Below, piece after piece: positions 7,541-15,770 of a stretch of 16,809 nt of DNA. A model generated the notes under the pieces. That model had not been told where the DNA came from, made no database searches, and saw only the letters and a list, made by a program, of their open reading frames with translations. The translations under genes and the position numbers were made by a program. The first letter of the stretch is position 1, and each line of letters starts with the position of its first letter. The stretch is from an uncultured Campylobacter sp. Lineage in GTDB: Bacteria; Campylobacterota; Campylobacteria; Campylobacterales; Campylobacteraceae. The stretch is from NCBI GenBank assembly GCA_949294425.1, contig CASFHJ010000248.1:1-16809 (forward strand), read 5' to 3'.

Positions 7541-8524
7541 ATGAAGATAAGATTATTTGTTTTTTCTTGTGTTTTATATTTTGTTATTTTGGCTGCGTTT
7601 ATTTTTCTTGTAAATTCTAGTGTATACACGCTTTCATTTTTAGGTTTTTCTTATACTATGCCTGTTCTTATGTGGGTTTTGTTACCAGCCTTGATTCTTT
7701 TTATCTTTGCCTTTTTGCATATGAGTTTTTATGGTTTTTTAAGACATGTAAAATACAAAAATTTCTTTAAAGATTCTGCTAAATTTGAGGACTTTGCTTG
7801 TGATATTTTGCTAGAAAAAGATCCAAGACCAAATTTTAAAACTAGCGAATTTAAAAGGGCTGCCGAGCTTTGCTTAGCTGTGAAAAAACTAGAAAAAATT
7901 CATAATTTAGATAAATTTAATGAGCTAATTGATTTACTTGTAGATATAAAAGATGAAAAGCTTGTAAACCTTAAAAAATTTAGGCTAAGCGAGGATAATA
8001 AGCTTTTCATACAAAATGAAAAAAATCATATTAAAAGTGATTTAAACTATGCTTATGATAGATTAAGATATAAAAAAGAGCTGGAAAATGAGCTTGATGA
8101 ACTAGCTTTTAGCAGGGTTTTAGAACTAGCCAGTATAGAGCAAATAAGAGCCTTAAAACTTCCTAAGGATAAAAAATTTGTAGAGCTTTACATAAATAGA
8201 CTAAAAGAGGAAAGCTTTAATCCTAGCTTAAATGAAATAGAAGAGCTTTTAAAAAGCGTAGAGCTTGACGAGAAAGACTTTTTAGCCCTAGCGAAATCTT
8301 GCATAAATAAATTCGAGCCAAGCACCTTTGTAGCCTTTTTCAAAAAGCTTGGCGAGGAAAAAAGTGAGGCTAAGAGAGCTTATTATTTTATCTTAGCTGA
8401 TTTGGCACTTTTTGACGAGCTAAGACTTGAAATGAAAGATAAGAAGGAATTTAAGGATTTTGAGCTTTTACTTTTAGCAAGAGATAAAAATATCAAAATA
8501 GATTTAAATGATTTTATAAGATGA
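7541..8524 (+). CDS. Two-helix membrane protein of unknown function
   Basis: I do not recognise a functional family. Seen, in 327 residues: two hydrophobic segments near the N-terminus (about 4-25 and 38-63), joined by a short loop, then a soluble domain of about 260 residues rich in Lys, Glu and Leu that looks almost entirely helical, with possible coiled coil around 145-185. The basic residues after the second helix suggest that the C-terminal domain is cytoplasmic. A GAGGAG binding site precedes the ATG. Its stop overlaps the start of the dus gene by ATGA, so the two are probably translationally coupled. Position between rlmH and dus matches C. jejuni Cj0124c (from memory), also annotated only as a membrane protein. 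Confidence 0.82.
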   Translation: MKIRLFVFSCVLYFVILAAFIFLVNSSVYTLSFLGFSYTMPVLMWVLLPALILFIFAFLHMSFYGFLRHVKYKNFFKDSAKFEDFACDILLEKDPRPNFKTSEFKRAAELCLAVKKLEKIHNLDKFNELIDLLVDIKDEKLVNLKKFRLSEDNKLFIQNEKNHIKSDLNYAYDRLRYKKELENELDELAFSRVLELASIEQIRALKLPKDKKFVELYINRLKEESFNPSLNEIEELLKSVELDEKDFLALAKSCINKFEPSTFVAFFKKLGEEKSEAKRAYYFILADLALFDELRLEMKDKKEFKDFELLLLARDKNIKIDLNDFIR

Positions 8525-11239: not shown

Positions 11240-12070
11240 TTGTTTGAAAAGATTTATATAGAATTAAGCGATATTTGCGGACTTGAGTGTAGTTTTTGTC
11301 CCAGTAAAAAAGGCGTTAGAGGTGTTTTAAGTCTTGAAAATTTTGAGCTTATTGAAAGTAAGGTGCATAAAAGAGCTAGAATTTTTACCTTTCATGTCCT
11401 AGGAGATCCCTTGCTTTTAAGAAATTTAAAAGATTACATAAATATTGCTAAAAACTACTCCATGAAGCTAGAGCTTACAAGTAGCGGCTTTTACTTAGAT
11501 AAACAAAGGCAAAAACTTTTGCAAGATAGCACAAGTATAAGGCAGATAAATTTTTCCCTAGCCTCTTTTTTCTCGCAAAAAAAGCTTTCTTTTAAGCAGT
11601 ATTTTACACCTATACTTGAGTTTTTAAGATATGATTTTAGGCAAAAATTTGTAAATTTAAGATTGTGGAATTTGGATAAAAATTTTAAGCCCCCGCTTGA
11701 AAATGAGTCCTTTTATAAAGCCTTAGAAGATGAATTTAAGCTAAAGATACACAGGGATAAAAGATTTAATAAATTAAAATCCTATGTCAGCCTTGAGCAA
11801 AGATCTTTTTTTGACTGGTCCTTTTCTAGCATTAAAAATGAAAACGGCACTTGTTATGGGCTTTCTAAGCAGCTTGGGATCTTAAGTGATGGCACTATTA
11901 TACCTTGTTGTATGGATTATGAGGCAAGGATAGCCTTAGGAAATATAATTTATGAGGATTTAGATCTAATACTTAAAAGCCAAAGGGCAAGTTCTATAAA
12001 AGAGGGCTTTAAGAAAGGAATTTTAGTTGAAGAGCTTTGTAAGAGTTGTGATTTTGCAAGGCAAAGATAA
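11240..12070 (+). CDS. Radical SAM protein with SPASM-like C-terminal cysteines
   Basis: Substrate unknown. Seen, in 276 residues: the radical SAM cluster motif CX3CX2C (Cys13, Cys17, Cys20) close to the N-terminus, a short barrel region with HVLGDPLL (52-59) in the place of the SAM-binding GGEPLL strand, and a C-terminal group Cys205, Cys223/Cys224, Cys267 and Cys270 of SPASM type that could hold one extra iron-sulfur cluster. SPASM proteins often modify ribosomal peptides or activate enzymes; no precursor peptide or partner is visible nearby. The start is TTG at 11240, preceded by AGGAGG (11230-11235), which overlaps the dnaG stop. Last gene of the accD-led run; it converges on pagP with only 2 bases between the stop codons. 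Confidence 0.88.
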   Translation: MFEKIYIELSDICGLECSFCPSKKGVRGVLSLENFELIESKVHKRARIFTFHVLGDPLLLRNLKDYINIAKNYSMKLELTSSGFYLDKQRQKLLQDSTSIRQINFSLASFFSQKKLSFKQYFTPILEFLRYDFRQKFVNLRLWNLDKNFKPPLENESFYKALEDEFKLKIHRDKRFNKLKSYVSLEQRSFFDWSFSSIKNENGTCYGLSKQLGILSDGTIIPCCMDYEARIALGNIIYEDLDLILKSQRASSIKEGFKKGILVEELCKSCDFARQR

Positions 12071-12072
12071 TT

Positions 12073-12594
12073 TTAAAATCTAAAAGAAAGATAAGTAAAG
12101 GCTACATTACCAAAATTTTTAAATCCGGGTATATAAGCCATTTGCACAGAAAGTCTATCAAAGTTTACACCTATTATCGGCAGGGGCAGGGGTATTGGTA
12201 TGTAGTAGTATTCCTTTCTTTGTGCAAAACCTATTGTATATCCTAGTGAAAATTTTATTTTATTATCATTTAAAAAATAATTATGCAAATAGCCAAACAT
12301 TGTTTGTAGATTGTAGTTTGAGTCCTTAAAGCCTAGAAAATAAAGCCCGTATTGCTCCTTATTTTCTTGCACTAATCTTGCATAACCAATGCCAAGAGGA
12401 CTTTCATTGTATCTATCTATATGGCTTTTATCATAGGCTAGTCTATTATGCCAGGTATTAAGTGGGAGAACAAGGGAGTGAGAGCCGTAATGATAAGTCT
12501 TTTTAAATTGATCGTGAAAATAAGTAAGTAAAGAAAAATCCTCACTAAGCAAGGGCTTTAAGCAAAAAAAGAGCAAAAATAAAAGTCTTTTCAT
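12073..12594 (-). CDS. pagP: Lipid A acyltransferase, PagP family
   Basis: PagP is an outer-membrane beta-barrel enzyme that moves an acyl chain (palmitate in E. coli) from phospholipids to lipid A. Seen, in 173 residues: a short signal peptide (about 1-17), then strong similarity to E. coli PagP along the whole chain: TWHNRLAYD with catalytic His49, DRYNE (60-64), GFKDS with catalytic Asp91 and Ser92, YIPIPLPLP (131-139) and MAYIPG (152-157), closing with the aromatic barrel signal SFRF. His49-to-Asp91 spacing (42) is one less than in E. coli (His33, Asp76). The position equal to E. coli Gly88 is Leu103. Its ATG overlaps the lolA stop (ATGA). I know of no PagP in C. jejuni. Confidence 0.9.
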   Translation of the reverse strand: MKRLLFLLFFCLKPLLSEDFSLLTYFHDQFKKTYHYGSHSLVLPLNTWHNRLAYDKSHIDRYNESPLGIGYARLVQENKEQYGLYFLGFKDSNYNLQTMFGYLHNYFLNDNKIKFSLGYTIGFAQRKEYYYIPIPLPLPIIGVNFDRLSVQMAYIPGFKNFGNVAFTYLSFRF

Positions 12595-13181: not shown

Positions 13182-15770
13182 ATGATAAAGATAATAAAAA
13201 GTATTTTTGGCACGAAAAATGACAGGGAGGTCAAAAAATATTTTAAAAGAGTAAATGAGATAAATTTCTTAGAAAGTAAGTATGAAAAATTAAGCGATGA
13301 GGAGCTTAAAAATGAATTTAAACTCTTACAAGATAAAGTAGATACAAAACACGCCTTACTTGATAATATACTAAACGATGTTTTTGCCATAGTTAGAGAG
13401 GTTAGTAAAAGAGTTTTAAATATGCGTCATTTTGATGTGCAACTAATAGGCGGTATGGTCTTGCACGAGGGAAAAATAGCAGAAATGAAAACAGGAGAGG
13501 GAAAGACCTTAGTGGCTTCTTTGGCTGTGGTTTTAAATGCCATGAGTAAAAAAGGAGTGCATGTAGTTACTGTAAATGATTATCTAGCCAAAAGAGATGC
13601 CCAGCAAATGGGAGAAATTTATAAATTCTTAGGCTTTAGCGTAGGGGTAGTACTTTCAAGTGATAATAGCGATGAGCTTAGAAAAAATGCTTATGAGTGC
13701 GATATAACCTATGGAACTAATAATGAATTTGGCTTTGATTATTTAAGAGATAATATGAAATTTTCAAGCACAGACAAGGTGCAAAGAGAACATAGCTTTG
13801 TCATAGTAGATGAGGTAGATAGTATACTTATAGATGAGGCTAGAACACCACTTATCATAAGTGGACCAACTAGCAAAACCTTAGACGGCTATATAAAGGC
13901 AAATGAGGTAGCCTCTAAAATGCAAAGAGGAGAAGCTGCTACTATGCCAAATGAAAAAGCTAGTGGGGACTTTGTAGTAGATGAAAAAAATAGAAGCATA
14001 CTTATAACAGAAGCGGGTATTGCCAAGGCTGAAAAGCTTTTTAATGTAGAAAATCTTTATAGCCTAGATAATGCTATGTTGGCTCATCATTTGGATCAAG
14101 CTTTAAAGGCTCATTATCTATTTGAAAAAGATGTGCATTATGTTTTAAGGGATAATCAGGTTGTAATAGTTGATGAATTTACAGGCAGACTTAGTGAGGG
14201 CAGACGTTTTAGTGAGGGACTTCACCAAGCCTTAGAAGCAAAAGAGGGAGTTAAGATACAAGAAGAAAGCCAGACCCTAGCTGATATAACCTTTCAAAAT
14301 TATTTTAGAATGTATGATAAATTAGCCGGTATGACAGGCACAGCACAAACAGAAGCAGCCGAATTTTCACAAATTTATTCCCTTGATGTTATCTCCATAC
14401 CTACAAATTTACCTGTAAAAAGGATAGATAAGCACGACTTAATCTACAAGAGCCAAGAGGAAAAATTTAAAGCTGTCATAGAGGAAGTAAAAATAGCAAA
14501 CAAAAAAGGACAACCAGTTTTAATAGGAACTGCAAGTATAGAAAGAAGTGAGCTTTTTCACTCCATGCTTGTTAAAGAAAGGATAGCCCATCACGTTTTG
14601 AATGCAAAAAATCACGAGCAAGAGGCTTTGATTATAGCTGATGCTGGAAAAAAATCAGCAGTAACCATAGCTACAAATATGGCTGGACGCGGAGTGGATA
14701 TAAAGATAGATGATGAGGTAAGAGCTCTTGGTGGGCTTTATATCATAGGCACTGAAAGACATGAAAGTAGACGCATAGATAATCAACTACGAGGGCGTGC
14801 TGGTAGACAAGGAGACCCCGGAATGAGTAGATTTTATCTCAGCTTAGAGGATAATTTGCTTAGAATTTTTGGCGGAGATAGGATAAAAAATATTATGCAA
14901 AGACTCGGTCTAAAAGAGGGAGAAAGTATATAGTCAGGCATAGTTACAAGAGCTGTTGAAAATGCACAAAAAAAGGTAGAAAGTATGCATTTTGAAAGCA
15001 GAAAACACCTGCTTGAGTATGATGATGTGGCAAATGAGCAAAGAAAGACCATTTATAAATATAGAAACGAGCTTTTAGATGAAAACTACAATATGAGAGA
15101 AAAAATTTCACAAAATATAAACGAATATGTTTCTTCCTTACAAAATGATCAAAGCCTTATCAAAGAGGATTTAGATATAGATATACAGGCTTTAAAAGCT
15201 AGGATAGCCTCTGATTTAAACCTTGATTTTAATGAAAATTTAGAAAAGCTAAATATGCAAGAGCTTTTAGATAAGCTAGAAGTCTTTCTTAACGAAAGTT
15301 ATGATAAGAAGATGTCTTCTTTAGATGACTTAGATAGAAAAAAGATAGAAAGAATTTTTTATTTACAAGTGCTTGATAATGCTTGGAGGGAGCATTTATA
15401 TCAAATGGATATATTAAAAACAGGAATTTCACTAAGAGGCTATAATCAAAAAGATCCCCTAGTAGAGTATAAAAAAGAAAGCTATAATCTCTTTCTTGAG
15501 CTAGTAGACAGGATAAAATTTGAAAGTATAAAACTGCTTTTTAGCCTAAGCATAAGCGAAAAAAATGCAGATAATTTAGAACAAAGAGCAAGTGAGCAAA
15601 ATGAGGATTTGCTCAAAAGCTCTAGTGAAAACATAAAAACACAGGAAGCAAAACAAGTAGAGGCTAGTTCTAAAAAGGTGCCTAGAAATTCTCCTTGTCC
15701 TTGTGGATCTGGTAAGAAATATAAAGAATGCTGCGGTAAAAGTGGACCAAAAAGAGGCTTATTAGCATAG
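13182..15770 (+). pseudogene. secA: Protein translocase ATPase SecA, interrupted by an in-frame amber codon
   Basis: SecA is the essential ATPase that drives preproteins through SecYEG. The reading frame runs from ATG 13182 to TAG 15768-15770 and would encode 862 residues, full length for the family, except that codon 584 (14931-14933) is TAG. Seen before it: Walker A TGEGKT (104-109), [15 protein letters not shown] with the DEVD box (210-213), the preprotein-binding region, and the second nucleotide-binding domain with [12 protein letters not shown]. Seen after it: the helical scaffold ([15 protein letters not shown]), the wing region, and the C-terminal zinc motif with Cys839, Cys841, Cys850 and Cys851. 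Relatives read GESIE where this frame reads GESI-stop. No frameshift or other lesion is visible. Because secA is essential, a sequencing error is as likely as a true mutation. Confidence 0.93.
14931..14933 (+). other. In-frame TAG within secA
   Basis: Replaces the Glu codon expected after GESI; GAG to TAG is one base. It separates a 583-residue N-terminal ATPase part from the 278 codons of scaffold, wing and C-terminal tail. TAG also ends accD, dnaG, tsaB and secA itself, so the codon is a normal stop in this genome. Confidence 0.95.

Follow-up and report, generated by a model that had tools for sequence, protein, structure and literature searches.

A counterpart of the gene considered here is secA of E. 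coli, where SecA is essential and its viability-essential part extends to about residue 827, according to the accessible portion of PMC13178939. Broken forms of the E. coli protein exist as laboratory fragments: in the accessible portion of PMC5456053, the fragments N68 and C34 are separable and overlapping fragments regain translocation when mixed, the overlap being needed for this, whereas the non-overlapping pair N609 and C34 forms some pore structures and gives no translocation. Two other bodies of work concern stop codons that lie inside genes. A U directly after the stop (+4U) lowers read-through in E. coli, with an effect mainly on UAA, in the part of PMC5289835 available; and of stops that arise spuriously in assemblies, the available part of PMC12007338 treats those caused by long-read errors, unlike the present case, in which isolated substitutions predominate.

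The window (the whole stretch of 16,809 nucleotides that was analysed) carries secA at 13182-15770 on the + strand, with an ATG start and a terminal TAG at 15768-15770. The sole break in this otherwise intact 862-codon gene is an in-frame TAG at 14931-14933, codon 584 counted from the start at 13182. The 5' part (13182..14933, 583 codons plus the TAG) is an open reading frame recognised by Pfam and by the NCBIfam SecA equivalogs; from 14934 onwards the frame is open once more, and the 3' part (14934..15770, + strand, 278 codons plus the terminal TAG) is recognised by Pfam in the same frame. A reading of this DNA made from the sequence alone, which we refer to as the sequence-only reading, had described the gene as intact on both sides of a single conserved Glu codon turned into TAG, and the alignments bear this out. 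The SecA of the nearest relative, G041, is matched both before the TAG (556 of 583 residues identical, 95.4%) and after it (232 of 277 compared residues, 83.8%), 39 of the 40 flanking residues match upstream and 40 of 40 downstream, and the aligned column holds Glu in 25 and Asp in one of 26 other SecA proteins. The frame with the TAG is not a chance frame. The window consists exclusively of A, C, G and T, so that the TAG is called unambiguously, and the base that follows it (+4) is T.

All domains of a canonical Campylobacter SecA translocase are shared by this locus, spread over both sides of the TAG. Pfam places SecA_DEAD at residues 6-396, SecA_PP_bind at 235-352 and P-loop_SecA (NBD2) from 411 in the first part, and SecA_SW (scaffold/wing) at 2-205 and SEC-C at 251-269 of the 278 residues in the second. 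The order by Pfam and NCBIfam over both parts is thus DEAD motor, preprotein-binding, P-loop, scaffold/wing and SEC-C, and the SecA translocase domain set (NF009538 / TIGR00963) is complete and ordered only if both parts are counted together; the difference from the canonical protein is that the single unbroken frame of a SecA is here interrupted by the TAG at codon 584. As the sequence-only reading had it, the first part stops short of the scaffold, SecA_SW lying wholly after the TAG, and because the scaffold match in the intact SecA of G041 starts at residue 583 (Pfam), the TAG sits at the motor/scaffold border. By alignment to chain h of 6s0k, we take codon 584 to correspond to about residue 619 of E. 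coli SecA, assuming four extra residues at the start of that chain. The likeness to N68/C34 would therefore be a break near the same domain border, although those fragments, unlike this split, were made in the laboratory.

The 3' part does not look like a gene remnant drifting free of selection. After the TAG, dN/dS is 0.108 for the comparison of this genome with G041, 0.124 with relative G003 and 0.109 between G041 and G003; before it, the corresponding values are 0.043, 0.057 and 0.041. Purifying selection past the TAG is much as in the intact pairs, with no marked relaxation, and from these ratios the entire frame appears to have been under selection as a single gene up to the very recent past, or to be so still. 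Residues private to this SecA number 10 before the TAG (6 in G041) and 14 after it (23 in G041), and none of its private residues falls in a column that is invariant in 26 other SecA sequences. Because this SecA has no excess of odd residues, the private-residue test is neutral on whether the sequence is in error.

The surrounding assembly is fragmentary. It comprises 1,246,105 bases in 281 contigs (mean about 4.4 kb), is 77.4% complete and 1.28% contaminated, and from its fragmentation and completeness we infer that it is a metagenome bin. To judge by its relatives the genome is that of a Campylobacter: among the matches listed, the closest loci that bear a name belong to Campylobacter sp. 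LR291e (83%) and to a Campylobacter MAG (76%), in a listing from which records of the genome itself may have been omitted, and the closest protein among the matches listed is 95% identical over the pre-TAG part and has a full length of 862 residues. No SecA nearer than 95% occurs among the best 80 loci and 120 proteins listed. A stop within secA occurs in none of 48 same-genus relatives (47 whole matches; in G032 a contig end truncates the match at 352 residues). The 90% cluster of the 261-residue C fragment has one member, itself, and that of a neighbouring hypothetical gene at 7541-8524 has five member sequences; read at face value, the cluster sizes hint at unbroken sister sequences of the species.

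To place the stop in the context of its own assembly, we took 1,015 frames from 1.23 Mb of G003 (in stretches overlapping by 5 kb) as references and compared them with 77 contigs or contig parts of this genome, 369,868 bases or about 30% of it. At a cut-off of at least 60% identity, 172 reference proteins were matched; removal of two shadow frames (L171_267_1001, with nine stops, and L202_529_903, with two), opposite which longer frames lie on the other strand of these contigs, left 170, which fall on 167 distinct places and 53,124 columns. For each reference protein the scan covered the best stretch, and breaks near the ends of stretches may escape. The first scan gave six genes with stops, from which L115, L123 and L156 were dropped, since their stops, within the first nine reference residues and preceded by poor identity, probably lie upstream of the true start; in the larger scan these stops and those in L228 and L227 (reference residues 5 to 14), all with poor identity before them, were dropped as probable start-site artefacts. 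An apparent frame change in L223 (C204, 266-305), near a contig end and at 60-63% identity, was left uncounted; its counterpart in G003 has 418 residues and no NCBIfam match.

Isolated mid-gene stops with good identity on both sides were found at three of the 167 places. Besides the TAG in secA, these are a TGA in aspartokinase (lysC, L127; C258 position 3016) at reference residue 163 of 402, and, in an HD-domain (YfbR-like) protein about 408 residues long (L104; C263 position 11066), a TAG at reference residue 145 of 408. The other 164 places are free of isolated mid-gene stops, and a possible frame change was seen at one place. When proteins of G041 were compared with the contigs of this genome (16 matched), the single stop was that of secA, and G041 and G003 compared directly (28 and 26 matched proteins) showed stops solely within 11 residues of the start or 5 of the end.

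The same genes have no isolated mid-gene stop in relatives, nor do bamA and dnaG, taken as a wider control. Stops are absent from aspartokinase in all 48, from the middle of the HD-domain gene in the 46 that were matched, from bamA in the 47 that were matched (one in part), and from dnaG in 47 of 48; a TAA met in the HD-domain gene of seven relatives is the terminal stop in each case (codon 409 or 410). The dnaG of G016 (G016:C1:1566194-1567882), in a one-contig, near-complete genome, reads with ten stops (1 TAG, 9 TAA), which suggests a frame change. In sum, isolated mid-gene stops number 0 in 237 matches in relatives (secA, lysC, HD-domain protein, bamA and dnaG) against 3 in 167 in this genome, a contrast with p of about 0.02 by codons (taking an estimated 140,000 or so codons for the relatives) and Fisher p of 0.07 by genes, in which the controls are mostly better assembled, only G037 and G040 of the 48 being less than 90% complete.

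Because two further isolated stops of different kinds share the assembly, the secA TAG is best explained as an error in the consensus or a mutation carried by few of the sampled cells. Judging from the assembled sequence, we regard this as probable. A substitution would have entered the consensus either from a mutation in a few sampled cells or because thin coverage let an error of sequencing or assembly through, and the species would make an ordinary full-length SecA. Coverage was presumably thin, and the TAG should then be absent from the reads or from another isolate; most likely it is absent from the living lineage. Core genes broken by isolated stops of mixed kind (TGA in lysC and TAG in the HD-domain gene, among 167 places), without surrounding decay, are the pattern expected of scattered substitutions in a thin consensus. 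Like spurious assembly stops, the TAG also stands alone and in frame within an essential, single-copy gene that is otherwise intact, under constraint and unbroken in relatives. Of random substitutions in the window's genes, about 5% would create a stop, so the stops seen would imply a rate of about 4 wrong or unfixed bases per 10,000, and with a single candidate frame change observed, the errors would be mostly substitutions. Set against this reading, the number of events (three) is small, and so is the statistical weight of the contrast with relatives (p 0.02 to 0.07); nothing else within secA looks error-like, although about one substitution would be expected there at the implied rate; and it is this genome's own branch that carries the more private residues before the TAG (the 10 against 6 given above).

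Could the TAG instead be a true, recent nonsense mutation in the dominant strain sampled, in cells that are failing or that shelter the mutation by unseen means? The unambiguous base call would agree with this, and three nonsense codons of mixed kinds could mark a decaying lineage. However, SecA is essential in E. coli (accessible part of PMC13178939), the 164 places of 167 without an isolated mid-gene stop speak against wider decay, the 3' part shows no marked relaxation of selection, and the size of the genome, about 1.6 Mb once corrected for its completeness, falls inside the 1.2-2.9 Mb spanned by relatives. We therefore hold a true mutation to be unlikely, if still worth bearing in mind.

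It is improbable, in our estimate, that the lineage has a genuine, fixed TAG and that SecA works nonetheless, whether by a lineage-specific amber suppressor tRNA encoded outside the assembled sequence or from two pieces that assemble at the domain border; suppression, read-through and a two-piece SecA all have little positive support. As regards decoding, full-length SecA would result if an amber suppressor tRNA read the TAG or if read-through were strong, and the conserved, constrained coding stretch past the in-frame TAG is indeed what such systems would show; the HD-domain gene likewise has a mid-gene TAG. Unlike in such systems, TAG here is a general terminator: of 141 sampled genes that include their 3' end, it closes 25 (TAA 80, TGA 36), and RF1 is present and intact in the genome. 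An efficient suppressor would thus extend many proteins. A CUA anticodon is absent from the 11 tRNAs called by ARAGORN, a set drawn from 12 tRNA matches in a 77.4%-complete genome, compared with 40 matches in each of G003 and G041, 42 in G012 and 26 in G037, so that a suppressor may be out of view. The +4 T also argues against read-through, as far as the effect described for E. coli (mainly for UAA; available part of PMC5289835) extends to TAG. Finally, the aspartokinase stop is TGA and would need another device; with stops of both kinds, one amber suppressor cannot explain both. Decoding of the TAG thus seems to us a poor prospect. A TAA stop in a second release-factor match (C222:354-1376) proved to be a terminal stop, which the match overruns by one codon, as the open frame on that strand stops at 357.

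A SecA made in two pieces would consist of the motor part up to the TAG and a scaffold/wing part restarting at the first in-frame ATG past the stop, seen by inspection at 14985..14987 (+ strand, codon 602). This ATG lies 51 bases past the TAG, with the last base of an AAGG 8 bases ahead of it, and of possible restarts it is the most plausible candidate. The position of the TAG at the motor/scaffold border fits such an arrangement, as does the behaviour of E. coli SecA, whose N68 and C34 fragments are separable and whose overlapping fragments regain translocation on mixing; but the pieces here would lack overlap, with 17 sense codons lost, and the non-overlapping N609/C34 failed in translocation (both in the accessible part of PMC5456053). 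The same Met and the residues upstream of it are present in the intact SecA of relatives P0001, P0002 and P0007, and for that reason the Met at codon 602 is no special adaptation. The split is seen in none of the 48 relatives, and the C fragment stands alone in its 90% cluster. We consider a two-piece SecA very improbable.

Equally improbable is a second, intact secA outside the assembled sequence, with the present copy a spare. The genome is only 77.4% complete, which would leave room for one; the sequence-only reading had called for a search for such a copy, and within the assembled part there is none, secA giving a single match in this genome. Against a spare copy stand the single secA match in each of the 48 relatives (48/48), selection that is not markedly relaxed, and a gene neighbourhood that is the same as in G041 and G003, where the neighbours are lolA-like, hypothetical and permease-like genes. 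At 12060-12085 of the window, a gene that we take to be radical-SAM-like abuts the inverted block of hypothetical gene, presumed lolA and secA, an arrangement that differs in G041 and G003; this junction is a rearrangement or a contig join. Full reassignment of TAG can be set aside in practice, as had been claimed from the sequence alone, since TAG is an ordinary terminator (25/141 genes) and RF1 is intact.

Of the explanations that the sequence-only reading had listed, error (widened to include an unfixed mutation) is thus the best fit, and suppression, read-through and a second secA find little support. That reading had also presented the amber codon in an essential gene as a paradox. Because error or an unfixed mutation fits best, the paradox is probably not biological, and similar stops occur elsewhere in the assembly. 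If the TAG were real, it would be an amber codon within an essential gene, and bacteria are not known to dispense with secA. For a lone stop in an essential gene of a metagenome bin, the other breaks in that bin should be weighed before suppression or recoding is proposed.
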